Source: Lysobacter alkalisoli | Lineage (GTDB): Bacteria; Pseudomonadota; Gammaproteobacteria; Xanthomonadales; Xanthomonadaceae | Length of the DNA stretch: 64,000 nt | Reading direction: 5' to 3' | Assembly: GCF_006547045.1 (NCBI RefSeq) | Contig: NZ_CP041242.1 | Coordinates: 2,366,001 to 2,430,000, forward strand | Part shown: positions 28,913 to 48,450 of the stretch, one piece after another | Layout of the letters: every line of letters starts with the position of its first letter | Numbering within the stretch: the stretch's first letter is position 1 | Made by a program: the position numbers and the translations under genes | Notes under the pieces: model-generated | What the model saw: the letters and a program-made list of their open reading frames with translations, nothing else | Told to the model about the DNA's origin: nothing | The model's database searches: none

Positions 28913-29008
28913 GCCATCGGCCATGCGGCAGCGCGCGGAGCGACGATCCAGACGCGGCCCACACGGGGCAGCCGATAGCATCACCGAAGTTCGTCATCGC
29001 GACGGGAC

Positions 29009-30195: not shown

Positions 30196-31779
30196 TCAAC
30201 CGGTGAGTGCGGCGTCCCCCGTCGATGCGGAGTCTGTCGATGCTGAATTCGCTGCGCCGCCGGTCTCCGTCGCCGGGCGGCCCGCGGCATCGCCCGAACC
30301 GCTGGTGCCGCCGCCTTCCCCGCCGCCCGTGGTGGTGCCGGAACCGCCTTCGCCGGAGCCGGAGGTGGCGTCCGTGCCGCCTGCACCGGCTCCGGAGCTA
30401 TCTCCCCCACCACCCGAACCGCTTGAACCGCCTGAACCACCCTCTCCACCCGACCCGCCAGAGCCGCCGGAGCCGCCTGCGCCTGCGGCACCGCCTGCGT
30501 CGCCGCCCGCATTGGGCTCGGGAACCTCCAGTGGCGTATCGGCCATCGAGGTACGTCCGGCCCCGTCGATGGCCGTATCCATGGCGCTGCGCCGGGCTCG
30601 CTCGGACTCGTGCTGGGCCTGCAGGCGCGCGGTGCGGGCGGCGGTCGGGTCGACCTCGGCCGAGGGGTTGATGGAGGCGTTGCGGATCCGGTCAGCCTGG
30701 GCCTGCGCGGCCATGCGATTGAGCGGCAGATAGTCGCTGCGGAAATTCAGTTCCACCGACGAATTGAGTTCCAGGTCGGTGTTCATCTCCTCGGTGCTCT
30801 GCGACCGCTGGGTGGACACGTAGCCGATGTTGTTCTCGATCTCGGCACTGGCGCCCCACGGCCCCACGCCGAACTTGCCGGCGGCACGGACGCGGTTCTG
30901 CAGGCTGAACTGGCTGCCGCGGTCCTCGCTGGCGGCACTGCGGGTGTCGACGTGGAAACGCATCGCGGCGTTGATCCGGCCGCTGTCGATGACGATCCGC
31001 TGCATCCCCATCATCACCATGGTCGCCAGCATCTGCTGGCGCTGCCGGGCGAGAAAACGGCGCGCCAACGGCACCAGCTGTTCGGGATTGCTGGCATCCA
31101 CCGATTCCTCCGGCGGGATGCCCAGCGTCGCGCGGACCCTCTCCTCGCCGGGCATGGACGCACCGCTTTTCAGGCGCAGGCGTGTTTCGGCGATGTCCTC
31201 GGGGTCGGGCTCGTCGTCGGGGTCGGGCAGTTCGAACTCGATCGAGTCCGGGAAGTGATCGGCGACCCATTGCCGCACCTGCACCAGGCCGAACTGGCTC
31301 TGCTCGAAGCCTTCGGCCGATGCCGACACCGAGTTGAGCAACTGCACGTACTGCTGCATCTGCTGGGTGCTGGAATCGATCATGGCGCTGAATACGCCGT
31401 TGATGAGATCGGTGACGAAGCGCGGAAACGACACCGCGTTGAGCACGTTGCGGGTGGTGCTGGCGATGCGATCGGCGGCTTCGCCGAAGCCGGGTTGCGA
31501 CTGCGCGCGGGCCAGTGGCGCGGTGCGTCGCACGCGGTCACCTTGCATGCGGTTATCTTGCATGTCCTGCTGCGCCTGCCCTTCCTCGGCGACCAGATCG
31601 GCCGCCAGGGCCGAGACCTTGACCATCGCCCGGGCCAGCGAACGACGCTCGTCGGTCGACAGGTTGCGGTAGTTCGGCGAACGCTCCAGCACCTCGCGCA
31701 CGGCACCACGTATCCACGGTGCCGGTGCGGCCTGCGGGGCCGGTCCCGTGGGCGCGACATGGGCCGCCACGGCATTCAT
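30196..31779 (-). CDS. Paralogue A of an unrecognised four-member family; Gly/Ser-rich tail
   Basis: 527 residues, no signal peptide or membrane helix. Three blocks are shared with the genes at 32694, 33969 and 41424: FPRFVTDLINGVF...IDSSTQQM (from about 118), RQQMLATMVMMGMQRIVI (mid) and LNSSVELNFRSDYLPLNRM (late). A helical N-terminal domain (VREVLERSPNYRNLSTDERR) is shared with B and C only. The last ~110 residues are low-complexity Gly/Ser with few charges, unlike the others. The start lies one base after the stop of the upstream gene. Last gene of the multi-protease operon. No function assigned. Confidence 0.75.
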   Translation of the reverse strand: MNAVAAHVAPTGPAPQAAPAPWIRGAVREVLERSPNYRNLSTDERRSLARAMVKVSALAADLVAEEGQAQQDMQDNRMQGDRVRRTAPLARAQSQPGFGEAADRIASTTRNVLNAVSFPRFVTDLINGVFSAMIDSSTQQMQQYVQLLNSVSASAEGFEQSQFGLVQVRQWVADHFPDSIEFELPDPDDEPDPEDIAETRLRLKSGASMPGEERVRATLGIPPEESVDASNPEQLVPLARRFLARQRQQMLATMVMMGMQRIVIDSGRINAAMRFHVDTRSAASEDRGSQFSLQNRVRAAGKFGVGPWGASAEIENNIGYVSTQRSQSTEEMNTDLELNSSVELNFRSDYLPLNRMAAQAQADRIRNASINPSAEVDPTAARTARLQAQHESERARRSAMDTAIDGAGRTSMADTPLEVPEPNAGGDAGGAAGAGGSGGSGGSGGEGGSGGSSGSGGGGDSSGAGAGGTDATSGSGEGGSGTTTGGGEGGGTSGSGDAAGRPATETGGAANSASTDSASTGDAALTG

Positions 31780-31780
31780 G

Positions 31781-32680
31781 TCAGGCCGCCGCGGGCAATG
31801 CAGTGGAGATCACCGGGACTTGCGACGGGGCTTTCGACGCATGAATCCGGCCCGACAGCCAGCGCTGCGCGGCGCCGATCAGCTCGAAGTCGTTCGGATC
31901 CAGCAGTGGCGCCTGCGCGGTCACGTTGTCGGCCAGCCACAACAGCACCGTCTGGCCGGCACGCCCCTGGTCGACGTAGCGCTGCACCATGCCCGCGCCC
32001 TGCCCCTGGCGTTGACCGGCGACGGCCACCAGTTGCCACAGCGACTGCACGCCGAAGGCAGTCTGTAGCAGCCGGTCGCGCATGAAGCCGAGCGCCAGGT
32101 TGATGGTGTCGACGATGTCGCGCGCGGCGATCGCCGCCATCGGATCGACGCGCTGCGCCAGGAACTCGCCGAGGGTCCCCGCGGCGGCTTCGAGCGCCAC
32201 GCGCTCGCGCAGGTCGCCACCATCGGCCTGGGCGACGATGGCTTCGCACAGGCGCGCCATCAGGGTGTCGAAGTACGGCATCTCGATGACGCGATTGAAG
32301 ATGGCGCGACGCTCGTTGGCGTCCAGCCGTTCACGCCGGCTCCGCCAGAAATTGTTGATCAGGGTGGCGGACGGTCCCAGCGGCTGGATGATCGCGCCGC
32401 TGGCGAACAGGCCGGCGATCAGCTCCGCCGTCGACAACAGCCCGGCATCCTCGAGCGCGCTGGAGAAATACAGCGGCGCGGCGGCCTGCAGGCGCCCTCG
32501 GTCCTGTGGCCCGGGCGAACCGGGCGGCAGGTCGATCGCGCCCAGGTCCGACATCGCCCAGGCCATCGCGGCATGCCCAGGCGCGAGCGCGGACATCGCC
32601 ACCGCCAGCGAGCGCATCAGTCCCGAATGTTCGTAGTTCGGATACAGGCAGATATCCGGCGGTGGCGGTAACAGGCGCAT
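31781..32680 (-). CDS. Unrecognised protein, short paralogue of the 704-residue operon protein
   Basis: 299 residues, mostly alpha-helical, no signal peptide. Its middle and end match the C-terminal half of the protein at 36598-38712: ELIAGLFASGAIIQPLG against ERIVELFRSGLLPLG, RERLDANERRAIFNRVI against VDRITEGERRDLYMRVF, QTAFGVQSLWQLV against RQAFGARDIWQVV, and LLDPNDFELIGAAQRWL against TIEPNDWDLVQACEQWL. It therefore represents the core unit of that family without the N-terminal coiled coil. Ribosome site GGAGG before ATG 32680; 13 bp after paralogue B. Confidence 0.72.
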   Translation of the reverse strand: MRLLPPPPDICLYPNYEHSGLMRSLAVAMSALAPGHAAMAWAMSDLGAIDLPPGSPGPQDRGRLQAAAPLYFSSALEDAGLLSTAELIAGLFASGAIIQPLGPSATLINNFWRSRRERLDANERRAIFNRVIEMPYFDTLMARLCEAIVAQADGGDLRERVALEAAAGTLGEFLAQRVDPMAAIAARDIVDTINLALGFMRDRLLQTAFGVQSLWQLVAVAGQRQGQGAGMVQRYVDQGRAGQTVLLWLADNVTAQAPLLDPNDFELIGAAQRWLSGRIHASKAPSQVPVISTALPAAA

Positions 32681-32693
32681 GCGCGGCCTCCGC

Positions 32694-33941
32694 TCAGCGA
32701 TTGCCCGAGGTACCGGCGCCGCCGCGTGCCGCCGGGATGTAGTTCGGATCGACCGGGGTCGAGTTGCCCTGGATCGCGGCGATCATCGCCGGCGATGCCA
32801 GCTTCTCCATCGGGAAGTAGTCCGACTTGAAGTTGACCCGCACCTCGCCGGTGAGCTTGGCCTTCATCTCCTGCTTGGATTCGGACTCCTCGTTCACGGA
32901 CGAGGACACGGTGGTCATGTGCGTCTGCACATTGGTGTTCTTGGTCGCCGCGCCGCCCCAGCCGAAATGTGCGCCGGCCACGGTGGTGTTGCGGTTGTAG
33001 CTGGTGTCGCGGTCGTACAGCGAAGCGGCAGCGCTGCGCTTGGCTTCGTCGGAGGCGCGGAAGTCGAACACCACCTTGGCATTGATCGCGCCGTCGGTAA
33101 CCACGATGCGATTGATGCCAAGGATCACCATCGACGACAGCAATTGCTGGCGGCTGCGCGCCATCTGCATCCGCGCGGCCTGCGCCAGGCGTCCTTCCTG
33201 TTCGGGATCGGACAGGTCGGTGATGGCCTGCGCGATCTGCATCTCCTGGCTCACCCGTGTCATCACCCCCTCTGCATTGTCCTCGTTGACAACGGCCAGG
33301 CGGGGGCCACCGGCATCGTCGAATCCGTCGCCGCCGCTGGTGTCGATGCGCAAGTCACCTGGAAAACGATCGACCAGCCAGTCGCGGGCGTTGTTGAGGC
33401 TGATGTTGTCGGAGGCGAACTGGTCGACGGTCTGCGACACCGATTTGAGCAGTTCGCCATACGCCCGCATCTGCTGGATCGTGGCATCGACGATGGCCTG
33501 GAACACGTTCTGGATCAGGCCACCAACGAACTCCGGAAAATCCACCGCGCCAATGTACTTGCGGAAGTTGTCCGCACCCTGCTCGACCGAGCCGGCCTCG
33601 AAGTCGCTGCCTGCGAAGGTACCGATCTTTTCCGATGCCTTGCCCTTGGCGGCATCGACCTCGCCCGCCAGCGCCCGCGCCAGGCCGTCGTCACGAGACT
33701 CGCCCTTGGCCAGGATGCCCTGCCCGGGCGTGAGTTCCTGTTTGGCCAGGCCGTCGGGGTTGGACATGTACGACGCCACCCGGACCATGTTGCGGGCGAG
33801 CGCCTGCTGCTCGGCGACCGGCAGCGCGCGGAAACCGGGCGAGGATTCGAGCAGCCTGCGCACCTGCGGCCGAACCGCGGACAGGGTTTCGTCGTCCAGC
33901 CAGGCCGGGCTTGCTGCTGCGCTTCGCACGGGTTCGCTCAT
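32694..33941 (-). CDS. Paralogue B of an unrecognised four-member family
   Basis: 415 residues. Shared blocks: VRRLLESSPGFRALPVAEQQ (N-terminal helices), DFPEFVGGLIQNVFQAIVD (from about 134), RQQLLSSMVILGINRIVV and LTGEVRVNFKSDYFPMEKL. Between the last two is a variable segment rich in Thr/Asn (RDTSYNRNTTVAGAHFGWGG). No signal peptide or catalytic signature is seen. The conserved spacing of blocks and variable inserts suggests a structural subunit. Ribosome site GGAG before ATG 33941; 27 bp from paralogue C. Confidence 0.74.
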   Translation of the reverse strand: MSEPVRSAAASPAWLDDETLSAVRPQVRRLLESSPGFRALPVAEQQALARNMVRVASYMSNPDGLAKQELTPGQGILAKGESRDDGLARALAGEVDAAKGKASEKIGTFAGSDFEAGSVEQGADNFRKYIGAVDFPEFVGGLIQNVFQAIVDATIQQMRAYGELLKSVSQTVDQFASDNISLNNARDWLVDRFPGDLRIDTSGGDGFDDAGGPRLAVVNEDNAEGVMTRVSQEMQIAQAITDLSDPEQEGRLAQAARMQMARSRQQLLSSMVILGINRIVVTDGAINAKVVFDFRASDEAKRSAAASLYDRDTSYNRNTTVAGAHFGWGGAATKNTNVQTHMTTVSSSVNEESESKQEMKAKLTGEVRVNFKSDYFPMEKLASPAMIAAIQGNSTPVDPNYIPAARGGAGTSGNR

Positions 33942-33968
33942 GGCGGTCTCTCCGTGTCGTGTCCGGGG

Positions 33969-35330
33969 TCAGGGCGTCGTCGCCGGCGGTGTCGTCGGGG
34001 AAGCCCCCGGGCTGGCCGGCGAAGCTGCCGGCTGCGGCGGCGCCGGCCGCCCGGCCATGGTCTTGACCATGCCCGGCTGTGCGTTCATCTGGATCGCCGC
34101 GATCGACTCGGGGTTGGCCAGCTTGTCCAGCGGCATGTAGTCGCTCTTGAAGTTGACCTCGACCTGGCCGGCAAGGCTGGCGCGCGCCTGCAGCGAGGCA
34201 TCGTTCTGCAGCTGCGACGTGCTCATCATCTTGATGATCGGTTGTTCGCTGTGCTTGTAGTTGCCCTTGGAGTAATAGCTGGCATCGCGGTTGCTGCCTT
34301 CATAGCCTGCTTCCTTGCTGTAGGTGAAACTGCGTTCACCGCCCTGGTAATCGCTCTCGTACTCGCCTTCTCCACTGCGGAGCTTGGCGATATTGCCGTA
34401 GGCATCGCGCTGGTGGTCCATCTTGGTGGCGCTGTGGCGGTACTTGAGGTTGTCGCGCGCCTGGAAGTCGTACATCACCTTGGCCGAGATGCGGCCGTCG
34501 GTGACCACGATGCGGTTGATGCCCAGCATCACCAGGGTGGCCAGCAGCTGCTGCCGTCCGGTGGCGATCTGGGTGCGCGCGGCCGGCACCAGCAAGGCTT
34601 CGACCAGTTCGTCGTCGAGCCGGGTGATCGGCTTGTCGAGCGGCAGCGACTGATTGATGCGCTCGACCGCGGCGCGTTCGTCCACGTCCTGGCGCACCAC
34701 CACCCGCGGCTCGTTGGCTGCCTGCCCACCCTCGTCGCCGAAGCCGCCGAAGTCGCCCCATTCGTTGTTGCCCATCTGCAACTGGAAGATATCGGGGAAC
34801 TGCTCGACCAGGTGATCGCGGCCCTGGTTCTGGGTGGTGTTGTCGTCGCGGAATTGATTGAGGCTCTTGGACACATCGGCGACCAGCTTGGCGTAGGCCT
34901 CCATCTGCTGGATCGACGAGGTGACGATGGAATGGAACACGCCGTCGATCAGGCCGCTGACGAACTCGGGGAAGTTCACCGCCTGCATCAACGCGCCGGC
35001 CTGCTGCACGCCGGTCTTCAGCGCGGTGCCGAACTCCGGCTGATCGTCCGTCGGCAACGGCTCGCTGTCGTTTCCGGCGAGCGCGCGCACCTGCGGGCTG
35101 AGCTGGTTGGGCTTCAGGCGGACGCCGTCCGGCTCGGCCAGGTAGCTGCCGACCTGCACCAGGCCCTTGGCCAGCGCTTCACGTTTCTCCGGCGCAAGCT
35201 CCTGGAAGGACTCGGCCTGTTCGAGCATCTGCCGCACCTTGCGACGCACGACATCGGTGGTTTCCCGGCTGGCCATGGGGGCGGCGGTGGCACGGGCCGC
35301 GGGAGCTGACTTTGGGAATATGGCGGACAT
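33969..35330 (-). CDS. Paralogue C of an unrecognised four-member family
   Basis: 453 residues from ATG 35330 (GGAG eight bases upstream; the open frame continues upstream but without similarity). Blocks: VRQMLEQAESFQELAPEKRE, NFPEFVSGLIDGVFHSIVT (from about 119), RQQLLATLVMLGINRIVV and LAGQVEVNFKSDYMPLDKL. The variable segment is Tyr/Ser/Lys-rich (YGNIAKLRSGEGEYESDYQG). The tail is Pro/Ala-rich. About 170 bp separate it from the upstream gene, the largest gap but one inside the operon. Confidence 0.74.
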   Translation of the reverse strand: MSAIFPKSAPAARATAAPMASRETTDVVRRKVRQMLEQAESFQELAPEKREALAKGLVQVGSYLAEPDGVRLKPNQLSPQVRALAGNDSEPLPTDDQPEFGTALKTGVQQAGALMQAVNFPEFVSGLIDGVFHSIVTSSIQQMEAYAKLVADVSKSLNQFRDDNTTQNQGRDHLVEQFPDIFQLQMGNNEWGDFGGFGDEGGQAANEPRVVVRQDVDERAAVERINQSLPLDKPITRLDDELVEALLVPAARTQIATGRQQLLATLVMLGINRIVVTDGRISAKVMYDFQARDNLKYRHSATKMDHQRDAYGNIAKLRSGEGEYESDYQGGERSFTYSKEAGYEGSNRDASYYSKGNYKHSEQPIIKMMSTSQLQNDASLQARASLAGQVEVNFKSDYMPLDKLANPESIAAIQMNAQPGMVKTMAGRPAPPQPAASPASPGASPTTPPATTP

Positions 35331-35501
35331 GGCCTGTGCTCCAGTGATTCGGCAGTTCTGAGTCGGCTGTTGGTTCCCGCAACGGCGGGAACCGGGCTTG
35401 TGTTTCATCCGCCGCCCTGTGCGTGCGCGCACCGGCAGCGGGCAGTTCTGCAGCGAGCAGTTCCGGCAACGTCGGCGGGACTGCATCCGCCTGACGCTTG
35501 T

Positions 35502-36557
35502 CTATTGCAGTGCACGCGCCTCCTCGATCTGCTCGCGCATCTCGAACTCGATCGGCCGCACGTACAGGCTGATCCGCGCCGGCGAGCTCGGCGTCACCCG
35601 GATGCTGAGTACGGAAAAGTGCCCCTGCTCGTTGGCTTCCATCCCGAAGGCTTCCAGCCAGCGCGACAACGCAGCCAGCTGGCGTGGACGCTCGGCCAGG
35701 CCGAGCTTGAGCAGGTCGAGGAAGCGGCCTGGCAGATCCGGGATCGAGGCCAGCAGGATCTCCAGCTTCATCTCGATACCGTCGGGCGTATTCCGCATCC
35801 CGATCAGCACCCCGCCAGAGGGGAGCTCGAAGCGGCCGCCCAGGGCCACGCCGACGATCCGCATCAGGCTCGGCAACTGGTGGCCGATGCCGAGACGGTT
35901 CATCAGCGGTCCCAGCGCGGCAACCGTCAACGGTCCCCGGTGCAGGAAGGTCACCCGCTGGCTCCCGGCTTCGCGCTTGCATCCGATCGAGGTGAAGATC
36001 GGCATCAGGCTCGGCATCTCGTTCATGGCCTGCCGGGTCAGTTGCGCCAGTGCCGGTGCGAGCGCATCGATCTGGCTGGGCAACAGTTCGTAGTAGATCT
36101 TGGCCGCGTACAGCCCGTCCTCGTCGAAGGCGCTGCCGAACCAGGCGCCATAGCTCATCCAGCCCAGGCCACCGAAGCCACGCCACTCCTCGCTGAGCGA
36201 GTCGAACCAGCGCAGTGCGTCGCGGCCGAACACCGGGCAGACCAGGCGCCGCATCTCGCGGGTGGCCTCGTCGCGCCTGGCCACCGGTGTTGCGGCGGGC
36301 CCGAGTGGCTCGATGGTGAAGCGCAGGGTATCCGGCTCGGCCTCGGAGAACGACGGCTCGTACGGCACCGCCCCGGGGGTGAGGGCATTGCGCGCATAGG
36401 CGACGTCGTCCTCCGGCAGGCTGAAAGTGCGATCGATCAGCGAATCCAGGTAAGGCAGCGGGTCGCGCGTTCCGAGCGCGCGTGCCGCCGATCTCAACGA
36501 CTGCTTGACCTGGGCTGCCATCGGCCGTTTGCCGTTGTGGCTGCGTGGCATGTTCAT
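35502..36557 (-). CDS. Unrecognised operon protein (351 residues)
   Basis: 351 residues, soluble, no signal peptide. Alternating helix and paired strands recur: LRFTIEPLG, YAAKIYYELLP, RVTFLHRG, GGVLIGMRNTPDGIEMKLEI, and RISLYVRPIEFE at the end. The repeated basic/tyrosine strands recall the ABBA-type aromatic prenyltransferase fold, but overall similarity cannot be judged by eye and this is weak. Start MNMPRSHNG has GGGAG at good spacing. Between the 704-residue protein (40 bp) and paralogue C. Confidence 0.68.
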   Translation of the reverse strand: MNMPRSHNGKRPMAAQVKQSLRSAARALGTRDPLPYLDSLIDRTFSLPEDDVAYARNALTPGAVPYEPSFSEAEPDTLRFTIEPLGPAATPVARRDEATREMRRLVCPVFGRDALRWFDSLSEEWRGFGGLGWMSYGAWFGSAFDEDGLYAAKIYYELLPSQIDALAPALAQLTRQAMNEMPSLMPIFTSIGCKREAGSQRVTFLHRGPLTVAALGPLMNRLGIGHQLPSLMRIVGVALGGRFELPSGGVLIGMRNTPDGIEMKLEILLASIPDLPGRFLDLLKLGLAERPRQLAALSRWLEAFGMEANEQGHFSVLSIRVTPSSPARISLYVRPIEFEMREQIEEARALQ

Positions 36558-36597
36558 GGCATATCTCCCATGGCTCCGGGACGACCGGCGACCGTGT

Positions 36598-38831: not shown

Positions 38832-38885
38832 GGGGTTCTCCTCGGCAGCGGTGCGGTGGTGCGTATTGCAGGGGTCTTGCAGTTG

Positions 38886-40400
38886 TCAGGCCGCGACGGA
38901 CGCGGGGTGTGGTTCGACTTCCTCGATCTCGTCCGGTGCATGGCCAGAGCCCTCGGCCATGTCCCGGTCGATGCGGCGGTCGAGCTGGTGCAACGCGGCC
39001 ATCGCATCGACCATGCCATGGCCGCATCCCTCCACGCCGGCGCGGGAGAACGGGCGTGCTGTCTCGACCAGTACTTCACGCGCCTCATGACTGTCGATCG
39101 GCCAGGCCCGGCGCTGCGCACGCGATGCCAGCAGGGCGCAGACCGCGGCCACGAACGGCGAAGCAAAACTGGTACCGGTGGCGCTCTGGTAGCCCCGCAG
39201 ACCGCAGGTCAGGATGTCGCGGCCCGGCGCGCACAGCGCGACATGTCCGCCGCGGGTGCTGAACGCCGCCGGTTGCTGGCTGCGATCGATCGCACCGACC
39301 GCGATCACGCCGTCGTGCGCGGCCGGATAGAAGCGCTCGTCGAGGCCGGAATTGCCGCTGGCCGCGACCAGGATCACCCCACGCGCCAGTGCATAGCGGA
39401 TGATTTCCTCATGCGGGCGCGGCGCATCGGCCGACAATGCCGACTCGGGGGTGCCAAAACTCATGTTGATGACCTTCACATTGAGGTCGATCAGCCGCTT
39501 CATGCCGGCATCGATATTGTCGAGCGCGCCGACACCGAAGCGTTTGTCGCCCGGCCCCAGCGCCGCACCCAGCACGCGCACCGGCGTCAACCCGCATGCG
39601 CCGGCGCCACCTGGCGGGATGTCGCGTCCATGCGCGGCGAGGATGCCGGCGCAACCGGTGCCGTGGCCGACCTCGTCCTGTGGCTCGTTGCCACGGCGGC
39701 GGTAGTTGCCGACCAGGGTGAGGCCGCCGACCAGTGCGGGATCGAGATCCACGCTGTCGAAACCCGCACGCAGCCTGGCGTCGAGTTCCTCATGTTCGAG
39801 CGCGACACCGGTATCGGCCAGGCCGACCACGGTGGCCGCGTCGCCCGGTTCATAGGCCAGCGCCTGCGACAGGTGGATCAGCTCACGCGCCCAGTGCGGG
39901 TCCTGCACCTTGCGAGGATCTACCCGGGTCGCGTCGGCCATGCCCTCGTCGGCAGCGAACGGCCCAGCGAACGGCCCATGGCACAGGTGGTCGGCGCAGA
40001 CCCGATCGACCACCGGCACCTCGGCCAAGGCCTGCAGCAGTGCCGGCACCCCGGCGGGGTCGCGCACCTCGATACGCAGCACGCGGGCGACGCCGGTGAT
40101 CTGTTCGACATCGTCGAATCGCCTTGCTCCCGGCACCGACCGTTCCACACGTCGCCTGCGCGCGCTGTGCAGGCGGGTGACGCGGAACACGTCGCCGTGG
40201 TGGCGCAGCAGGCGATCGATCACACCGCCATCGATGTGGTCCGCCTTCTCGGTGCCGTACCCGATCACCGCACGCAGGCCGGGAATATGTTCGGGCACCT
40301 CGCCCAACTTCAGTGTCAGCAGCAGTCGGCCCGGTATCTGCCATGGTCGACGCAATCTCATACCCTGCGCGAAGGACGTCATGGTGGCCGGCGTGTTCAT
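38886..40400 (-). CDS. Subtilisin-like serine peptidase (S8), no export signal
   Basis: 504 residues from ATG 40400, set by the ATGA overlap with the upstream gene. Catalytic triad Asp196 (GLADTGVAL), His246 (EVGHGTGCAGI) and Ser411 (SATGTSFASP), with oxyanion Asn in AASGNSG. The ~180 residues before the catalytic domain are not a standard signal plus I9 propeptide, and the N-terminus has no hydrophobic core, so the protease appears cytoplasmic or released by another route. It is one of four protease domains encoded in this operon. Confidence 0.9.
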   Translation of the reverse strand: MNTPATMTSFAQGMRLRRPWQIPGRLLLTLKLGEVPEHIPGLRAVIGYGTEKADHIDGGVIDRLLRHHGDVFRVTRLHSARRRRVERSVPGARRFDDVEQITGVARVLRIEVRDPAGVPALLQALAEVPVVDRVCADHLCHGPFAGPFAADEGMADATRVDPRKVQDPHWARELIHLSQALAYEPGDAATVVGLADTGVALEHEELDARLRAGFDSVDLDPALVGGLTLVGNYRRRGNEPQDEVGHGTGCAGILAAHGRDIPPGGAGACGLTPVRVLGAALGPGDKRFGVGALDNIDAGMKRLIDLNVKVINMSFGTPESALSADAPRPHEEIIRYALARGVILVAASGNSGLDERFYPAAHDGVIAVGAIDRSQQPAAFSTRGGHVALCAPGRDILTCGLRGYQSATGTSFASPFVAAVCALLASRAQRRAWPIDSHEAREVLVETARPFSRAGVEGCGHGMVDAMAALHQLDRRIDRDMAEGSGHAPDEIEEVEPHPASVAA

Positions 40401-41170
40401 GGCGTGCTCCACTGGCCAAGATGGCCTTCACAGAGTTCCACGCGCGCGACTTCACCATCGCCGAAATCGAGCTCGGCCTCGCACCCCAGCTGGCTGGCCA
40501 GCGGCGCAAGCACGATGCCGCCCTCGGCCGATTCCACCACCGGGACGGCCTGCCCCGCGGCGCGCACCAGCGGCAGGCGGCCGCCGCGCAATGAGGGCGT
40601 GCTCAGGTGCACGCGCTGGCCGGCGGCACCATTCCCGTTGCGTTCGACCCGGGTCACCCGCGGCGCCGACGCGTTCATCAGCGCCTGCTGCAGGCGGTTG
40701 ACCGGCATTCGCGACAGCCGCGCGATCACGTCGGTACCCGCGGACTCCTTCAACTCGTTGAGCTGGGTGACGGTGCGCACGCCGATCCGCTCCAGGCGCC
40801 GCTGATCGTCCTCGCTGATTCGGTCGCCCATTGCCTCGCGCAGGCTGAACTTCGGGTCTTCGGCTTTGTAGTCGACCGCATTCTCCTCGATCATCGGCTT
40901 GGTGATCGTGGTCAATGCGAGCTTGATCGTGCTGGCCTCGGTCTCGCCGGGGCCGGCCGGGCGCAGGAACACGTCCTCGTCGACCATCTGCACGAACGCG
41001 CGCAGGTCCAGCGACACTTCCTTGACCGCGAAGGTCAGCGGCAACTTGCCGATGCGCGCCTTGATCGCCATCGATGCCTGCGCCTTGTCCAACTGCTCGG
41101 TCAGGGCCTGGATGAACAGGTCGAAGGGAATGCCGCTGTCGCGGACGAGGGCGGGAATCTGCGCGCTCAT
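40397..41170 (-). CDS. Probable trypsin-co-occurring-domain protein with helix-hairpin-helix-like segment
   Basis: 257 residues. Residues 1-100 (PFDLFIQALTEQLDKAQASM, LPLTFAVKEVSLDLRAFVQ, TIKLALTTITKP) resemble the small beta-rich trypsin co-occurring (Trypco) domains that accompany trypsin-like proteases in conflict-type operons. Residues about 118-168 (ISEDDQRRLERIGVRTVTQL...MPVNRLQQALMNAS) look like a helix-hairpin-helix unit. The tail is beta-rich. Overlaps by ATGA with genes on both sides, so stoichiometric production with the neighbours is likely. The Trypco call is inference. Confidence 0.6.
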   Translation of the reverse strand: MSAQIPALVRDSGIPFDLFIQALTEQLDKAQASMAIKARIGKLPLTFAVKEVSLDLRAFVQMVDEDVFLRPAGPGETEASTIKLALTTITKPMIEENAVDYKAEDPKFSLREAMGDRISEDDQRRLERIGVRTVTQLNELKESAGTDVIARLSRMPVNRLQQALMNASAPRVTRVERNGNGAAGQRVHLSTPSLRGGRLPLVRAAGQAVPVVESAEGGIVLAPLASQLGCEAELDFGDGEVARVELCEGHLGQWSTP

Positions 41171-41427
41171 GACCGTCCGCCCCCGGTTTCATCTGTTGCA
41201 TGGCCCCAGGACAGCCGCAGCTTCGACGGCGAGGCCATCCAGTCGTTGACTTCGCGGCTGCGCGGCACGTCCGCCAGCAGCACGCAGCCGCCATCGCGCA
41301 GCACCGGCCGCAGTTCCAGCGGCAGGGTCATCTCGACCTGCGCCAGCTGCACGCCTCCACGGGCTTCGACAGCCAGCAGTCCGTCGTGCAACTCATTCAA
41401 CAGGTGGGAGAGTTCGCGCAGCATCAC
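41167..41427 (-). CDS. Small operon protein, possible Trypco-like domain
   Basis: 86 residues: one helix (ELSHLLNELHDGLLAVEARG) followed by strands (VEMTLPLELRPVLRDGGCVLLADVP) and NDWMASPSKLRLSW. The helix plus two-strand order is like the N-terminus of the next gene, so the two may be related adaptors. ATGA overlaps join it to paralogue D upstream and to the 257-residue protein downstream. Function unknown. Confidence 0.62.
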   Translation of the reverse strand: MMLRELSHLLNELHDGLLAVEARGGVQLAQVEMTLPLELRPVLRDGGCVLLADVPRSREVNDWMASPSKLRLSWGHATDETGGGRS

Positions 41428-42410
41428 GCACCTCCTTCAGTCGGTGGTGTCGGAGCCACGGCCGGCGCTGCCGGCGCTGGAGCGGTTGCCGCGGCCGCGG
41501 GCTGCGCCCGCATCGCCGGCGAATGGCGCTGCACCAGTGCGGCTTTGGCCGGCTCGACCATGCGGTCGAGCGGCAGCGTCTCGCTGACGAAGTTCAGCTT
41601 GACCTCACCGAACAGGTCGGCACGCACGTTGGATTCGTTCTGGGCGTTGACGGCGACGGTCGATACCATCGTCGAACTCTGGCCTTCGTAGCTCAGGCTC
41701 CCGCGCTCGCCCCAGTTGGCCACCGCCTTGGGGTCGGTGCCGGCGGCGTAGCCGACCTTGGCCGCGTCCTGGGCGGCAGCACGGAACATCACCTTGCTGG
41801 TGATGCTGCCGTCGCGTACGACGACCCGATTCATGCCGAGCATCACCATGGTCGCCAGCAGTTGCTGGCGCTCGCCACCGACCTTCAATCTCACCTGCGG
41901 CAGGATCTGTTCCTCCAACAGCTCGGTGGTCAGGGTTTCGTTCTCGATGCCGTACTCGGCCAGCCAGGCGGGTTCCAGGTCGTCGCTGCGAGGGGCCAGT
42001 TGCGGCTCGATCCGCTCACCGCCATCGGGCAACAGAAGTTGCACGTCGCCGGGGTAGCGCGTGGCCAGCCAGTCGCGGGCCTGGTTGGGGCTGACGTTCT
42101 CCTCGGTGAACTGCTCCAGCGTCTTGGCCACCGCAGTGACCAGGCTGGAATAGCTCTCCATCTGTCGGATCGAGGCATCGACGATCGCATCGAAGGTGCC
42201 GTGCACAAGCTGGGCGACGAAGCCGGGGAAGTCGATCTCGTTGACCATCGCACCGGTCCGCCGGGCGATGGTCTCGGTGGCCTGCGGCTTGGGCGTCGCC
42301 GGAGTCCCCGCGGCTTGGCCGTTGCCGGCCGTTTCACCGCTGAGCGCGCGGGCAGGGGCGCCGTTGCGGGGCGGGAAGATCCTGCTGCCAGTGCCGTTGT
42401 GCTCGGACAC
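41424..42410 (-). CDS. Paralogue D of an unrecognised four-member family (short form)
   Basis: 328 residues from GTG 42410 (AGGA seven bases upstream, inside the end of the preceding gene's trailer). Blocks: DFPGFVAQLVHGTFDAIVD (from about 60), RQQLLATMVMLGMNRVVV and LFGEVKLNFVSETLPLDRM. It lacks the N-terminal helical domain shared by A, B and C; instead there is a Pro/Ala/Thr-rich lead of ~45 residues. It is the first paralogue in transcription order and directly follows the multi-domain protease gene by 10 bp. Confidence 0.74.
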   Translation of the reverse strand: MSEHNGTGSRIFPPRNGAPARALSGETAGNGQAAGTPATPKPQATETIARRTGAMVNEIDFPGFVAQLVHGTFDAIVDASIRQMESYSSLVTAVAKTLEQFTEENVSPNQARDWLATRYPGDVQLLLPDGGERIEPQLAPRSDDLEPAWLAEYGIENETLTTELLEEQILPQVRLKVGGERQQLLATMVMLGMNRVVVRDGSITSKVMFRAAAQDAAKVGYAAGTDPKAVANWGERGSLSYEGQSSTMVSTVAVNAQNESNVRADLFGEVKLNFVSETLPLDRMVEPAKAALVQRHSPAMRAQPAAAATAPAPAAPAVAPTPPTEGGA

Positions 42411-42420
42411 GATGCATTCC

Positions 42421-45400
42421 TCAGGCCGTGGTCACCCAGTGGTTCCGGCGCTCGTAGCGACCATCGCCCAGCAGGCGCAGCTCGATTCGTGCCACCGGGC
42501 TGCCTTCGGCCAGGCCGACGAAGCGGTAGTCGATACCGACCTTCAACACCGCGACCTCGCCGGCATCGGCCTCGTCCTCGATCCGCGCCATCACGTCGAC
42601 ACCGTGGTCGAGCTCGAGCGATGCTGCCGGGACGGGATTGGTCTCGTTCTGGACCGGCTCGTCATGAGCCTGTTCTGGCGCCTGGCTCCCATCGCTCGTG
42701 GCGGGCTCGGCAGCGACGATACGCACGTCGCCAACCGCCCCCTGCACGGCCCGGAAGCTCACCGTCAGCGGCAACGGGGCCGGCTGTCCCTCCAGCGCGG
42801 GCCAGTCGCCAAGCTCGACATGCACCTCGACCGGTTCGGCGTCGGCGGCATCGGCCGACTGCACCGCCGGCGATTTCAAGCCTTCGAGCTGCTCCAGCGC
42901 CCAGGTACTGGCACCGCGTTGGCCCCGCTGCACGTGCATGCGGGTACCGGCGATCCGGCTGGGCTCGATCGGTTCGATGTGCTCTTTGTTGGGCGCGTCG
43001 CCAGCGCCATTCACTCCGCTCTCAAGCGCGTGCACCCGGGCCGGGGGCCGCGCCAGACGCAGGCGTCCGCGACGCGCAGCAAGCGATTGCGAAATCGCGG
43101 CCGCTTCATGTGTCGGCCTGGACGAACGCTCGGGCAGATACAGCACTCGCCAATTGCCATAGCCGGGCTCGGCCATGTTGCCGAAGTCGGCGGCGAAATC
43201 GGCGAACGACAGCCAGTCTTCGTAACCGCCGTTGGGTGGGTTGAACGCGACTGGATCGGCATCGAACGCCACCCGGGTGTCCCAGGGGTTGAGCACCTTG
43301 ACCTCGGACGCGGCCGGATCATCGAGGTCGCCGCGGATGCCCGCGACCACCACCGCATGCGGTGCACCGACGATCACCACCCACAACGGGCCATGCAGGC
43401 TCAGCCAGCGCGCCCATTCGCGGGGCGTGTGGTAGAGACTGGCGTTCGACGGCTCTTCGACGAACTCGAACCTGTAGCGATCGCGGACGGCATTGAGCAG
43501 ATCCCAGCCGTATGACGTCGCCAGCGAGGCGCCGACCTCGTTGGCCAGTGTCTCCGGCGCGAACGAGGCCAATCCGCGGTACGACAGCAGCATTGCCATC
43601 GCTGCCGCCCAGCACGAGTTCTTGTCGGGTTGTGGGATCAGTTCGACCGGGTAGTCGCCCGGTCCGTACTGATGTCCAACGAGCTCGCTGCCGGGAGCAG
43701 TCGCGTCTGCATCGGCATCGGGGGCGGGCATGGTGGAGCCTGCGGCAGGTTCCATCGGCACTTCGTTCGATGCAGCCTCGTCGGCTCCGGCTTCCACCGC
43801 GTCGGCTTCCACCGGCCCCGCCTCCACCGCACCACCTGCACTCAACGAGAACGTCAGCGGCTGTCCCCACCCGGAAGCGGTACTGCGTATCCAGCGCAGC
43901 TTCTCCTGGGTGATCCTGCAACCACGGTTGGTACGGTCGTCATTGGCAGCCACGTGCACACCGACGAGATGCGCGACCGGGTGCTCGCCCTCCTCGATCC
44001 AGTACACAGGCGACCCACTGGTGCCGGCCAGCGTCTGCAGATCGTAGGTGAAGCTGCCCTCCGTCGGAATCTCGCGGATGTGGCCACCATGAGCATGCTG
44101 CCTGTTCTCGTCGATGTTGTTGTTGACGAATTCCTCGATGGCGCTTGTCGCATGCCACCAGGCGGCATAGCCGCTCACCACGACGCCTTCGGGCCGGCTC
44201 TCCATCAGTTCTTCGACCAGGTTGAAGTAACTGGGCGACCTCGCATTGCCATTGTTTGCGGCGTGCTTGGCCGGGACCCGGATCAGCGCCATGTCGTTGT
44301 CGTGCCCGTCGACGCCATACGACGGGTGCTTGACGAAATTGGAGGAAGCAACGCGGAATCGGCCGAACGGTTCGCTCGTACTGCCGGTACCACCGCCGTT
44401 CTTGCCCGGCACGATGATCAGCTCACTCTGTCCATCGACCACGTGTGCCGCCGTCAGCAACAACCGCGGAGCGATGAAGAAGGCGGTACCCATATGCGCG
44501 CCTTCGGCCGAGCCGTCGGGCCGCCGTACCTGGCATATCGCCGAATAGGGCGGCTTGGTGGTATCCGTCACGCCCAGGAACCACATGGCGCCACGGGCGA
44601 AGTGGCCGATCTGGACGAGCAGCGCGTCCCACCAGCTGCTGGGCTGGTCGTAAGGTTCCACCAGGAAGGGCCTGGCATATGCACGTGGCGATACGTGTGC
44701 CGGCGCTCGCATGTTCATGCCGTTACCCAGCGCGAAGCTCCGGGCCCGGCCCTCGATCCAGTCGATCTTGTCCGGGGTGATGAAGCAGCCGCGGTTGAGC
44801 CCTTCAGCAACCGGTGTACCACTGACATGTACCGCGCAGATCAACGCCTGCAGGCTGCCGCCCGAAGCGTCGATGGTATAGACGGGAGACCCGCTGGCAC
44901 CCGCAAGGGTCAGGATCGGATAGTCGATCGTCTCCGGTGTCGGCCTCCTGCGAATGGACCCGCCATGCACATGCTGCTTGTCACGGTCGATGATGCGGTT
45001 CAGCTCGGGCACCCTGCGAGAACTGGCCGAATAGCCGCATATCGCCAAGGGCATGGCCTCCGACGGTGTCATCCGCATGAAGCGGAAAAACTGGCCGTTG
45101 GGCGCCGCGATCGGCACGTTGTCGATCACTGCCAGATCCTTGGCCCAATCTCCGTCGCCAGAATAGCCCGGGGCAACGCGCCAGGACGATGAAGCGACCG
45201 TGGTGTCGCCGAATGGGCGCTCGCCGGCCCCATTGCGGCCGGGGATGATCTGGCAGCGGCTCATCCCGTGCAGGTTGTGTGCGCAGGTGAGGATGCGATT
45301 CCGGCCGATGTAGAAACCGGTGCCCTGGTACCGACTGCCGTCCGGTGCGGTGATCTTGAGTTGGCAGATCGCCGAGTGCGGGAAGTGGCGCGTTTTCGCG

Positions 45401-46893
45401 ACGCCCGCGAACCACGCCTCACGCTCCAGGCTGAAAGCGCTCTGCGTGCATTGCAACGCCGTGGCGGTGTCTTTGGCGTCGTAGAACGGCTCGATGATTT
45501 CCTGCGCGCGCGCATAGGCGCGGCGGCCCGTATGGGCGCCGAGCCCCTGGGCCGTGGGCGCGGGCGCCGCGTCCGGCTCGTAGCAGGTCCGCGACGTGAC
45601 CATGCCCATGTAGTAGTCCCAGTCCCAGACCGCGTTCGGGCAGCCGGTATGGGTGGTGCTCGTGTCGGCCTCGGAATGGCCAAGGATGTGGGTGCGGTCG
45701 ACCGGAATTCCGTATTGGTCGCACAGCCAGGTGACCAGCGCGGCCGAGGCGCACATCTGTGCCGGCGTCGGGTTGAGCCCGCGAGTGTTGGCGACATGTT
45801 CGATACCGATACTGGTGCCATTGGCCGAGCGCGCGTGCCAGGCGACGTCGGCGTGACGCACCATCTGCACGACCTCGCCGTCCTGGCCGATCACGTAGTG
45901 CGCGCTGACATTGGCATCGGGATTCTGGAACCAGCCGATAGTGCCATTGATGTTGGCTCCGCCATCGGTGATATGAATGACGACACGCTCGATGTTTCGA
46001 CCGCTCGAAGTGGTGCGGTAATTGCTGCTGTGCGCCGCCACGAATCGACTGGCCTGCGGATACTCGGGCGCGGGCGCGTTCAGTGCACGCGCGCTGCGCG
46101 CCATCGCCTGTGCGGTGGCGAGATCGTCAGGAATCGGGCCTTCGATGCCATGCCGGCTGTCTTCGTCGTCCGTACCGGCATTGAATGCCCGGGCACGGCC
46201 GAGAGATGCCGCCGGTGCCGGCACGGCGGCCTCGCCACCGCCGTTGCCGTTGCCGTTGCCGGGAGCGGCTGTAGCAGCTGTCTCATCCTGCTGCCACAGC
46301 TCATCCGGATAACCGTCGCTGTAGGGTGCGGCCTGTTCCGGTACCGCGGCGGCGCCGTTGTGGCCGCTCGCAGCGCCATTGCCGTTTACGACGTTGCCAT
46401 TGCCGCCTCGGGGCGATGCGTTGACCAGTGCGTCGCCGCCCCAGCTCAATGCGTGGCCATTGCCGCCATAGCCATTGGCTCCATTGCGTGCGGTACGGCG
46501 CAACCCACGCTCGGTAAGTCCGGACAGGCTGACGTACATGCGCCCCTCGTCCGGGATCTTCACCGAGATCGGCCGGCTGCGGTCCTTGTCCTGATAGGTC
46601 GCAAGACCAAAGTACAGGCGCGACTGGCCTACGAAGCGCGCCACCACACCGGGCGGTACCAGGTACACCGATTCGCGTCCGCCGGGGACGTAGCGGTTGC
46701 CGGCCGGTCCGGTCGCCAGCAACTGGCTGGTGAAGAAGTTCCGGCTCGTGCGCCGCCCCTGGTTTTCGGCCTTGAGCAGTTCCGGATCGGTAGCCAGGCC
46801 GATCTCGAACAGGGGGAGGTCGGTGCGTACGGTGAAACCCAGCACGCTGAAGCGATCGTCGATCGATTCGCGGTTGGCTCGGATGACTGCCAT
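42421..46893 (-). CDS. Giant multi-domain hydrolase: amidase, two trypsin-like and one papain-like domain
   Basis: 1490 residues from ATG 46893 (AAGGAG six bases upstream). Order: conserved N-terminal domain (1-130); Gly/Asn-rich linker (~135-240); N-acetylmuramoyl-L-alanine amidase/PGRP domain (~295-440, His307 in VVIHIT and THTGCPN for zinc); V8/trypsin-like domain 1 (~500-700, His539 in LTCAHNL, Ser669 in GASGSPVY); trypsin-like domain 2 (~780-990, His817 in LTAAHVV, Ser961 in GTSGSPVYW); papain-like domain (~1075-1240, Cys1094 in NSCWAAAMAM, His1179 in GAPHAVVV, VLNPWD); beta-rich tail. All catalytic residues look intact. No signal peptide is visible. I know no named protein with this set. 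Confidence 0.88.
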   Translation of the reverse strand: MAVIRANRESIDDRFSVLGFTVRTDLPLFEIGLATDPELLKAENQGRRTSRNFFTSQLLATGPAGNRYVPGGRESVYLVPPGVVARFVGQSRLYFGLATYQDKDRSRPISVKIPDEGRMYVSLSGLTERGLRRTARNGANGYGGNGHALSWGGDALVNASPRGGNGNVVNGNGAASGHNGAAAVPEQAAPYSDGYPDELWQQDETAATAAPGNGNGNGGGEAAVPAPAASLGRARAFNAGTDDEDSRHGIEGPIPDDLATAQAMARSARALNAPAPEYPQASRFVAAHSSNYRTTSSGRNIERVVIHITDGGANINGTIGWFQNPDANVSAHYVIGQDGEVVQMVRHADVAWHARSANGTSIGIEHVANTRGLNPTPAQMCASAALVTWLCDQYGIPVDRTHILGHSEADTSTTHTGCPNAVWDWDYYMGMVTSRTCYEPDAAPAPTAQGLGAHTGRRAYARAQEIIEPFYDAKDTATALQCTQSAFSLEREAWFAGVAKTRHFPHSAICQLKITAPDGSRYQGTGFYIGRNRILTCAHNLHGMSRCQIIPGRNGAGERPFGDTTVASSSWRVAPGYSGDGDWAKDLAVIDNVPIAAPNGQFFRFMRMTPSEAMPLAICGYSASSRRVPELNRIIDRDKQHVHGGSIRRRPTPETIDYPILTLAGASGSPVYTIDASGGSLQALICAVHVSGTPVAEGLNRGCFITPDKIDWIEGRARSFALGNGMNMRAPAHVSPRAYARPFLVEPYDQPSSWWDALLVQIGHFARGAMWFLGVTDTTKPPYSAICQVRRPDGSAEGAHMGTAFFIAPRLLLTAAHVVDGQSELIIVPGKNGGGTGSTSEPFGRFRVASSNFVKHPSYGVDGHDNDMALIRVPAKHAANNGNARSPSYFNLVEELMESRPEGVVVSGYAAWWHATSAIEEFVNNNIDENRQHAHGGHIREIPTEGSFTYDLQTLAGTSGSPVYWIEEGEHPVAHLVGVHVAANDDRTNRGCRITQEKLRWIRSTASGWGQPLTFSLSAGGAVEAGPVEADAVEAGADEAASNEVPMEPAAGSTMPAPDADADATAPGSELVGHQYGPGDYPVELIPQPDKNSCWAAAMAMLLSYRGLASFAPETLANEVGASLATSYGWDLLNAVRDRYRFEFVEEPSNASLYHTPREWARWLSLHGPLWVVIVGAPHAVVVAGIRGDLDDPAASEVKVLNPWDTRVAFDADPVAFNPPNGGYEDWLSFADFAADFGNMAEPGYGNWRVLYLPERSSRPTHEAAAISQSLAARRGRLRLARPPARVHALESGVNGAGDAPNKEHIEPIEPSRIAGTRMHVQRGQRGASTWALEQLEGLKSPAVQSADAADAEPVEVHVELGDWPALEGQPAPLPLTVSFRAVQGAVGDVRIVAAEPATSDGSQAPEQAHDEPVQNETNPVPAASLELDHGVDVMARIEDEADAGEVAVLKVGIDYRFVGLAEGSPVARIELRLLGDGRYERRNHWVTTA

Positions 46894-46912
46894 GGCGGAC
46901 TCCTTGGGCTGC

Positions 46913-47257
46913 TCACTTGCTCGGAGTGGATCGCGTGCCGTTCCGGCGAACGTCGGCGTCATGCCCGGCTGGAGTACCGATACATTCACCCAGCGCCAGC
47001 GCGACCGATTCGTCGTCGGCATCGTTGATGACGGAGGAAACGCGTTCCCAGAAACGCTGCTGGGCATCGATGCCGATGCCTTCCAGATGGGGCTTCATGA
47101 AATCGACCACCGTCTCGAGGTGGCGGAAGAACACACGCTGCCCGGACTGCACGTGCTCGATCGAACCACGCCACTCGGCGGCCACGACATCGTCGTTCCG
47201 ATGTTCGTTCCATACACGAACGATGAAGGCCGCGGTTCGATCCTCGAGCAATGTCAT
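46913..47257 (-). CDS. Small conserved operon protein of unknown function
   Basis: 114 residues. The core (FIVRVWNEHR...EWRGSIEHVQSGQRVFFRHLETVVDFMKPHL) is a compact alpha/beta sequence of the kind found as short stand-alone proteins near proteases and regulators in several phyla. Its stop is 19 bp before the giant hydrolase start, so it is co-transcribed and first in the run after the regulator gap. No catalytic motif. The last ~25 residues are disordered. Confidence 0.7.
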   Translation of the reverse strand: MTLLEDRTAAFIVRVWNEHRNDDVVAAEWRGSIEHVQSGQRVFFRHLETVVDFMKPHLEGIGIDAQQRFWERVSSVINDADDESVALALGECIGTPAGHDADVRRNGTRSTPSK

Positions 47258-47496
47258 GACGAACGTCCATGCAGTGAGGCTTGGGCCGATCCTGCGCCCG
47301 CCCTCTCACCCTGGCGTCACCGCTGCATCACACCTGTATCACGGCAGAATTCCGCCTTGTGATGGCCAAGTGACGATGGACTGTCGCGGACAGCACACAC
47401 CTGACAGCGCGCACGCATCCCGCCTGCACACAGGACCGGCAGGAAGGATGCACGACATCCACCCTCACCAGCTCCGGGCATGGGCCATCAATGCAG

Positions 47497-48450
47497 CTAT
47501 TGCCGCAGGAACCTCAGGCTCAACTGCAGCTGGGCATCGGCGGTCGACAACTGGCGCCGTGTCGAGTCGATCAGATCACAGGCTTCGGCCAAGCTGGCTG
47601 GCGTGGCCAGCGAGCGGGAACTGTCCCTGGCCCGAACAGGCCCTTCGGGCCGCATCACAGCCACATCACGCTCTACCGATGCCATCGCGCCAATCGCACT
47701 CTCGGCTATCTGCCGGTAGACCTCCATCGTTTCGCGCATGGGCTGGATCGCCAGCTCCCTGCGCAACAGTTCACGGCAGCATTCGAACTGCTGCAACGCC
47801 TGTGCGCGCTGCCCGCTTGACACGTACAACAGCATCAGCTCCCTGTGCACGTCCTCGCGCAGCGCGTCGTTGTCGAGGATCGCCTGGGCATAACCGATTG
47901 CCTCGTCGTAGTCGCGACGGATGCGTGCCACCTGCATCAGCCGCCCGAGTGCATTGAGGTAATCGCGACGATGCTTCTCGCGCTCACGCAGGGCCCAGTC
48001 GTCGGTCACCTCCAGCAGGATGTCCGACTTGTACATCGCCACCCCGCGGCGCAAGCCGTCGATATCCGCATCGCTGAGGCTCTCCGTCGGCCTGGAAAGC
48101 CCCGGCGACACCTGTTTCTTGAACTCCTCCACGTCCAGCCAGACCCCGGCCGGACCGTTCAGGCTGATCGCGCCACGGCGGTCGCTGACGATCAGGTCCC
48201 CGTGCTTGAGTGGCGGCCGCTCCACCATGCGTCGCAAACGCCACAACGCGGTATTGAACGAGCCCGGCGTCGACGACGACGTGCGCTCCGGCCACAGACT
48301 GGCGAGCAGCTCCGAACGGCTGAAGAAGCGCCCGTGACCCAACGCGAGATACGCCAGCAGATTGGCGCAGCGGCCGGAAATGGCCACGGCTTCACCGTCG
48401 GCGCCATCGGTGGCGACGGAAAATGAACCGAACATCCGTATCCTGAGCAT
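47497..48450 (-). CDS. BTAD/SARP-type transcriptional regulator
   Basis: 317 residues from ATG 48450; the ATG at 48459 lies too close to GGAG. A winged-helix DNA-binding domain (MLRIRMFGSFSVATDG, ELLASLWPERTSSSTPGSFNTALWRLRR) is followed by the bacterial transcriptional activation domain with helical repeats (ALREDVHRELMLLYVSSGQRAQALQQFE). No ATPase or sensor domain. Such regulators control secondary metabolism in actinomycetes and conflict-type operons elsewhere. It is transcribed toward the protease operon with a 239-bp gap, which may hold a separate promoter under its control. Confidence 0.87.
   Translation of the reverse strand: MLRIRMFGSFSVATDGADGEAVAISGRCANLLAYLALGHGRFFSRSELLASLWPERTSSSTPGSFNTALWRLRRMVERPPLKHGDLIVSDRRGAISLNGPAGVWLDVEEFKKQVSPGLSRPTESLSDADIDGLRRGVAMYKSDILLEVTDDWALREREKHRRDYLNALGRLMQVARIRRDYDEAIGYAQAILDNDALREDVHRELMLLYVSSGQRAQALQQFECCRELLRRELAIQPMRETMEVYRQIAESAIGAMASVERDVAVMRPEGPVRARDSSRSLATPASLAEACDLIDSTRRQLSTADAQLQLSLRFLRQ

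Follow-up and report, generated by a model that had tools for sequence, protein, structure and literature searches.

A conserved bacterial gene cassette with a modular peptidase cargo, possibly encoding an effector-loaded assembly

What kind of system places proteases, several sets of paralogous proteins and one transcriptional regulator side by side on the same strand? The question is raised by a locus of Lysobacter alkalisoli that lies in the stretch of 64,000 nucleotides analysed here (the window; NZ_CP041242.1, positions 2,366,001 to 2,430,000). An earlier note on this DNA had presented it as an undescribed multi-protease operon under a BTAD regulator, suggestive of a protease-loaded assembly or a conflict system. 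We find a cassette whose anatomy is practically certain and which may serve to make, hold and release one modular effector in the form of a soluble, effector-loaded assembly, a reading to which we give about even chances. Beyond what had been noticed before, we report a prenyltransferase fold, a weak Trypco2 match, a cargo design shared with other genomes and a second type of control. Loci and genomes are designated below by L and G numbers, respectively.

The cassette comprises the BTAD regulator gene and twelve further genes, all on the minus strand, and spans 30196-48459 (Table 1); the BTAD gene extends to 48459 and not to 48450. Downstream of the regulator follow, in this order, genes for a protein of 114 amino acids (aa), a 1490-aa cargo, A1, sm86, p257, an S8 subtilase, B1, a 351-aa protein of DMATS fold, A2, A3, B2 and A4. 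Three junctions are 4-base overlaps, six have a spacing of 1-40 bases, and the remainder are gaps of 239, 173 and 171 bases. The open reading frames (ORFs), the overlaps and the Pfam BTAD match bear out the earlier description of a BTAD regulator followed by twelve partly overlapping minus-strand genes.

Conservation of this arrangement was assessed by a scan with two peptide patterns over one genome per species (84,980 species), which gave 158 confirmed stretches; the best 80 (77 loci) were kept, and a profile of each cassette gene was searched in them. Family A (A1-A4) was the bait, hence its own recovery is biased, whereas the other genes are free of this bias both in presence and in order. 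The exact order A1-sm86-p257-S8-B1-DMAT-A2-A3-B2-A4 was found in 53 of the 77 loci, a recurrence beyond chance. Of the 24 others, 16 are cut by a contig end and eight have a broken, fused, missed or extra gene, and no rival gene order occurs among the 77. These genes are therefore fixed neighbours over several phyla, which refutes the possibility, raised at the outset, that they are rarely adjacent elsewhere. Record titles of the loci name Pseudomonadota, Acidobacteriota, Cyanobacteriota, Anaerolineae, Gemmatimonadetes, Actinomycetota, Desulfobulbus and Myxococcales; several carriers are bins from metagenomes and might be mislabelled, but neither the Cellulomonas nor the cyanobacterium is marked as such. 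A ten-gene order maintained over several phyla is unusual and is normally the sign of a multi-subunit machine.

The paralogy proposed earlier, four members of one family and two of another, was recovered by a search of the own genome for family A (34-40% identity to A3 in the alignment) and by blastp for B1 and B2 (3e-18). In a tree of A1-A4 from 30 loci, the sequences formed one clade per position in the cassette (Shimodaira-Hasegawa-like approximate likelihood ratio test, SH-aLRT, 100, 99, 96 and 100); the tree is a quick one with no bootstrap, and attraction between the long branches of A1 and A4 is flagged by the program as a possibility. Four distinct A subunits are therefore old and have been kept together. 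A3 matches DUF6683 weakly in 20 of 38 members, and profile searches against solved structures gave no match for A3 at E 10 or for B2 at E 1. Family A and DUF2589 (PF11655) have a similar order of helix, strand, Gly/Ser-rich insert and strand, but two hhalign tests did not establish kinship: the joint A profile gave P = 0.017 and 0.008 and other A profiles up to 0.25, against 0.037 for the best non-A control. DUF2589 genes themselves are often adjacent unlike pairs, in four of the five genomes having any (L165-L174).

The large protein read earlier as an amidase/trypsin/trypsin/papain chain carries exactly these parts by Pfam: Amidase_2 (298-419), two trypsin stretches (~520-720 and 802-970) and a C70 papain domain (1086-1206), with catalytic-looking motifs located in the window cargo. 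They are preceded by an N-terminal domain (~1-140) and the motifs LSWGGD (W151) and YSDGY (Y191), and followed by a conserved C-terminal region from ~1325. We aligned 35 cargos, namely that of the window and 34 of 49 matches, duplicates, fragments and near relatives being omitted by choice. R48, F53, W151, D154, Y191, D193 and G194 are invariant, and all 35 have WxxD (as W-x-G-D in 34 and WGAD in one) and YxDG in a low-complexity linker behind the conserved N-terminal domain; most also keep the C-terminal region. The domains in between vary (Pfam, E 0.001): C70 occurs in 27 cargos, Trypsin_2 in 19, Amidase_2 in 17, C92 in nine, C39_2 in eight, DUF3238 in seven, NlpC/P60 in two, and M15, SLT and CHAP in one each. 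By its sequence the protein resembles a toxin cargo, with constant ends and shuffled peptidases and wall hydrolases between them. The proteases previously called redundant are indeed present, and are better read as one modular cargo and one separate S8 enzyme. The N-terminal domain is found once in the own genome, and its profile matches FosB2 weakly (E = 0.002 over 56 positions). In six loci a relative of the 114-aa protein, which itself has no Pfam match, is encoded at a distance of 4-65 bases before the cargo gene. In a cyanobacterial variant (L175, 265-15421), a 1296-aa protein near the core has an EndoU nuclease domain (5.1e-6; its 27.3 bits exceed the cut-off of 25.3); by eye, it and its neighbour have a common LxxLEQSLxG stretch near the start.

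The 351-aa protein was modelled by AlphaFold2 with a mean predicted local distance difference test score (pLDDT) of 89.3, and all 50 PDB matches listed by Foldseek are DMATS-type prenyltransferases. Among them is CymD (6os5, E = 1.6e-12, template modelling score, TM, 0.67-0.68), and TM reaches 0.74 for DMATS1. On the model, the protein has the DMATS/ABBA fold, an ABBA barrel of five repeats. Pfam Trp_DMAT gives the window member 19.2 bits, under the cut-off of 25, and matches 23 of 37 members at E <= 0.1 (best 1.2e-4). In a weak hhalign alignment (P = 0.0057) with five DMATS proteins from Cellulomonas-phylum genomes, R79, K153, Y155, R201 and Y332 pair with Arg, Lys, Tyr, Arg and Tyr; the pairing of E67 was made by eye. 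Presumably, the equivalents of these six residues bind pyrophosphate and substrate. On this weak mapping, the set is strictly present in 60 of the 74 scan loci having a DMAT gene, conservatively changed in six, lost in seven and unreadable in one broken copy; the presumed active site is thus kept in 66 of 74. The losses are joint and fall in one clade (L092, L093, L095-L099), where the gene itself is retained. Joint keeping and joint loss would fit an active site abandoned by one clade, and because the gene stays there, the protein may also have another role. The motif Trp and Tyr of the cargo were considered as its sole prenylation substrate, a candidate weakened by four cargos of the lost-site clade (L125, L126, L152, L153) that keep both residues; the L150 cargo also keeps both, by pattern. 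Searched for members of the DMATS family, neither the own genome nor any of 14 control genomes yielded one.

The separate subtilase, recognised by its Pfam S8 match, was said earlier to have no export signal, which agrees with a crude hydropathy test. Of 59 loci, all have the Ser motif, 57 the Asp motif and 35 a match to a narrow His pattern, a GHG triplet lying within columns conserved at 95% or more. The window p257 has no Pfam match, and its profile matches no solved structure at E 1. Trypco2 matches 16 of 30 p257 relatives at E <= 1 (best 1.7e-4), and TIG and DUF4332 match two of 30 each; in L176, a distant relative matches TIG (8.1e-11) and, under the cut-off, Trypco2 (0.0019). These relatives suggest a layout of Trypco2, DUF4332-like helix-hairpin-helix and TIG, and the label of a Trypco2-type adaptor is likely but weak. 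A role of p257 limited to trypsin was set aside, L121 and L127 cargos having no recognised trypsin and still adjoining p257. The sm86 profile matches in 73 of 108 loci (duplicates included), and sm86 has no Pfam match. A 19-residue hydropathy test of ten proteins in 59 loci (L020-L023 duplicate others) found no consistent transmembrane segment or signal peptide; the limit is exceeded in single loci (S8 in three, B2 in two, A4 in one). Three of 20 cargos slightly exceed it, internally and with no consistent segment. The test covered these ten proteins and the cargo, the 114-aa protein and Tat and lipoprotein signals being outside it.

Control by BTAD, taken earlier to govern the operon, holds for one branch; in the other a sigma-54 activator is found, and there are two alternative control modules. 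That of the window type consists of BTAD and an RTAAF-type small protein. The other consists of a sigma-54 activator with no N-terminal sensor (Pfam in L119 and L127; annotated in B. pyrrocinia) and a DUF3467 protein (Pfam, L109). We compared 42 upstream stretches, with L020, L022, L100, L102, L131, L140 and L154 left out as cut, duplicate or fragmentary. The activator motif occurs in 16, of which 14 have a DUF3467-type motif and none the RTAAF type; the RTAAF-type motif occurs in 15 of the 42, none with the activator motif. A -24/-12 site with at least 10 of 12 matches is present in 14 of the 16 activator-type loci versus four of the 26 others, and 13 of those 14 sites lie 382-518 bases before the cargo. 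Two of the four exceptions (L109, L124) have a DUF3467-type gene, and L109 has an annotated sigma-54 regulator missed by the motif. Since shuffled sequences reach single site scores in 0-6 of 100 cases, the constant position of the site carries much of the weight. Upstream of the window cassette there is no sigma-54 site (best 7 of 12).

Table 1. Genes of the cassette in the Lysobacter alkalisoli window, listed from the regulator gene onwards.
Feature	Coordinates	Strand	Basis or remark
BTAD/SARP-type transcriptional regulator, 320 aa	47497..48459	-	Pfam BTAD 3.3e-22, Trans_reg_C 6.3e-6
Small protein, 114 aa, 'RTAAFIVRVW' type	46913..47257	-	ORF; directly upstream of cargo gene
Cargo/effector, 1490 aa	42421..46893	-	Pfam domains; invariant columns over 35 cargos
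A1, family A paralogue, 328 aa	41424..42410	-	Own clade of 30 rows, SH-aLRT 100
sm86, 86 aa	41167..41427	-	4-base overlap with both A1 and p257
p257, 257 aa, possible adaptor	40397..41170	-	Layout suggested by relatives
S8 subtilase, 504 aa	38886..40400	-	Pfam S8 5.5e-36; ~190-aa N-terminal extension
B1, 704 aa	36598..38712	-	Family B is its C-terminal half
DMATS/ABBA prenyltransferase-fold protein, 351 aa	35502..36557	-	AlphaFold2 model, Foldseek, residue set
A2, family A paralogue, 453 aa	33969..35330	-	
A3, family A paralogue, 415 aa	32694..33941	-	
B2, family B, 299 aa	31781..32680	-	
A4, family A paralogue, 527 aa	30196..31779	-	Tail Gly/Ser-rich

Of the two possibilities named earlier, a protease-loaded assembly or a conflict system, an assembly with peptidases and wall hydrolases fits best; its existence and its function are what we infer, and each step beyond the loaded assembly is held with less than even confidence. 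A1-A4 and B1-B2 would form a soluble, cytoplasmic hetero-oligomeric scaffold, on which the cargo would dock via its N-terminal domain and the WxxD and YxDG linker motifs, aided by the small upstream protein and p257. The Trypco2-like part of p257 might sit on the peptidase modules. S8 would cut scaffold or cargo, thereby activating or freeing it. As an optional addition, prenylation of the cargo or of a subunit by the DMATS-fold protein might occur in most lineages and could lend an otherwise soluble particle membrane affinity. The loaded particle would be released and turn on competitors, predators or other attackers, whose wall and proteins it would attack; because nothing for export was recognised, cell lysis is our guess as the most likely exit. 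In its most specific form, a hetero-oligomer of A1-A4 and B1-B2, assembled in the cytosol and free of membrane proteins, would carry a modular toxin through WxxD/YxDG, be fired by S8 and seek membranes through a DMATS-fold Trp/Tyr protein prenyltransferase; we regard this full combination as improbable, and if it were true the hetero-oligomer would be a new class of bacterial effector machine.

Several observations weigh against the loaded assembly or its individual steps. Nothing belonging to a known machine for export or injection was recognised that would account for the way out. Nor was an immunity gene recognised among the neighbour families common to at least five loci, which are regulators, small proteins, a second-slot protein adjoining the cargo and two clusters at scattered distances; such genes need not be conserved. 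A3 was modelled poorly (pLDDT 62.3), and our view of assembly does not draw on structure. Trypco2 is matched weakly, and p257 adjoins the L121 and L127 cargos in which trypsin was not recognised. Finally, since seven DMAT genes have lost the residue set, the gene stays and the clade's four aligned cargos keep W and Y, any prenylation would not be essential everywhere, nor would the motif residues of the cargo be its only substrate.

The main rival is a Trypco-type internal conflict system, an intracellular suicide or anti-phage device in the Trypco/VMAP style in which S8 and trypsin would act as a cascade in the producer and the wall hydrolases would complete lysis; we consider it rather unlikely. 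It would account for the Trypco2 matches among p257 relatives, the hydropathy results and the patchy distribution, and 'System 3' of Kaur et al. (2020; PMC7159879) pairs trypsin, S8 and wall-peptidase effectors. Against it, the twelve genes and the BTAD gene have no STAND, MoxR, vWA or VMAP Pfam match, and the AAA+ protein of the other control branch is a sigma-54 activator, not the NTPase core of a conflict system. Moreover, PADLOC matches are generic or partial (subtilase, RT-Protease_XI, JetC coiled coil, PDC-S45, HamA), and wall hydrolases would be odd cytosolic effectors.

A secretion machine, either type VII-like with S8 as a mycosin or a tail-like injector, appears quite improbable. S8 matches the mycosin model (3.8e-46) with 158 bits, below the cut-off of 279, the EspC model matches A3 at E 0.04 in one of 38 members, and the effectors are modular; but there is no match to a membrane protein, secretion ATPase, tube, sheath or baseplate. 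Type VII marks (FtsK/SpoIIIE-type ATPase, WXG100, membrane channel) gave no Pfam or NCBIfam match, and hydropathy shows no transmembrane segment. Sheath, tube and baseplate gave no Pfam match, and PHROGs, queried with the cargo N-terminus and nine cassette proteins (A1, S8 and the rest of the cargo lying outside this search), returned only two weak matches of unknown function.

Secreted hydrolases are common in Lysobacter, and an ordinary digestive-enzyme operon with the extra genes as chaperones might be envisaged; this is very improbable given a cargo with no export signal, a ten-gene order fixed over phyla and four old paralogues. Least probable of all is a RiPP-like (ribosomally synthesized and post-translationally modified peptide) pathway in the cyanobactin manner, with S8 and the ABBA prenyltransferase tailoring a peptide, for which the fold, the residue set kept in 66 of 74 loci and a PatA match of S8 (5.3e-24, far under its cut-off) can be cited, but against which stand the lack of a heterocyclase or precursor recognised by Pfam in the twelve genes (short peptides were not searched exhaustively), large genes that are paralogues and a long enzyme chain, and one clade that lost the active site and kept the rest.

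Distribution was patchy in the two genome sets sampled. The A profile matches ten of 60 genomes (own included), eight with three or four strong copies, namely six of the seven of the genus together with G019 and G021, and two with one weak match; among 369 genomes drawn from the class, it matches the own genome and one other weakly. In G004 the cassette adjoins the same aldehyde dehydrogenase gene as in the window, whereas in G021 it lies inside a 317-kb contig and that gene is on a different contig; the cassette is thus accessory, and its genomic place is not fixed. In G005 it runs to the contig end. The cyanobacterial relatives L110 and L175 retain S8, B, a single A, p257 and a weak sm86 match, with other genes present, and have no DMAT match, and L176 retains A, p257 and an S8. 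This reduced set suggests a smaller ancestral core to which DMAT and A copies would have been added later.

Individual copies and their surroundings show further features. The copies in L046 (Ramlibacter montanisoli) and L061 (Cupriavidus necator A5-1) look broken by frame changes or sequence errors; profile searches detected neither A1, sm86, p257, S8 nor a complete B1 in the upstream half of L061, nor sm86 in L088. A fifth A gene is present in L100, L102, L103 and L105, with a second weak cargo-profile match ~3 kb downstream of the last A. In L090 (5483-8509, Cellulomonas) a single open frame contains both B1 and the DMATS-fold protein. In L109 (22092-26689, B. pyrrocinia) genes for an adenylate/guanylate cyclase and a patatin-like protein follow the cassette, and on a Tolypothrix plasmid (L110, 7576-19100) the related core adjoins an IS701 transposase. 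Past the 3' end of the window cassette (26436-29643) lie two tandem beta-lactamase-2 (class A-like) genes and an ExoD gene. Sigma-70 promoter-like sites number 0 against 1.9 expected, and terminator-like sites 11 against 8.3.

How does the cassette relate to known systems? PADLOC and PHROGs returned no named system for ten queries each (those for PADLOC being without A1, A2 and BTAD), and no description of the cassette was found in the open-access literature, judged largely from listings and with preprints outside the scope. The word 'undescribed' is accordingly supported to the extent of Pfam, NCBIfam, PADLOC and PHROGs, some proteins having been compared with part of these libraries, and of open-access papers without preprints. 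The cassette appears to be new as a system and is partly built from known folds; work outside the literature searched could change that. The nearest published text is that of Kaur et al. (2020; PMC7159879) and PMC10907252. The Trypco/VMAP systems and 'System 3' (PMC7159879) share with the cassette a weak Trypco2-like domain, trypsin and S8 peptidases and wall-attacking papain-like effectors; unlike them, the cassette has no recognised NTPase, vWA, VMAP, NucA or EAD1, and it has the A and B families, the DMATS fold and a fixed ten-gene order.

The type VII mycosin MycP is similar in its S8 domain, but the cassette enzyme scores under the model cut-off, has no signal or transmembrane segment seen and is accompanied by no ESX genes. 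CymD, PriB and IptA, bacterial DMATS-type indole prenyltransferases, have the same fold (TM about 0.7) and an E-R-K-Y-R-Y set that is mostly kept; they differ in identity (~15%), in the absence of a surrounding small-molecule cluster from the cassette, and in the middle Arg-Lys-Tyr strand, in which Lys and Tyr are replaced in the cassette protein (on this mapping). Polymorphic toxin systems likewise join a constant N-terminus to shuffled enzymatic domains, and EndoU occurs in one divergent cassette relative; unlike them, the cassette has no recognised secretion or RHS/CdiA scaffold or immunity gene, and its cargo has a conserved C-terminus. The cargo combines a shared region with variable toxin domains, as polymorphic toxins do, and trafficking would fall to the shared region. 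The cassette thus unites a toxin-like modular cargo, the fold of a natural-product prenyltransferase and a conflict-system-like adaptor.

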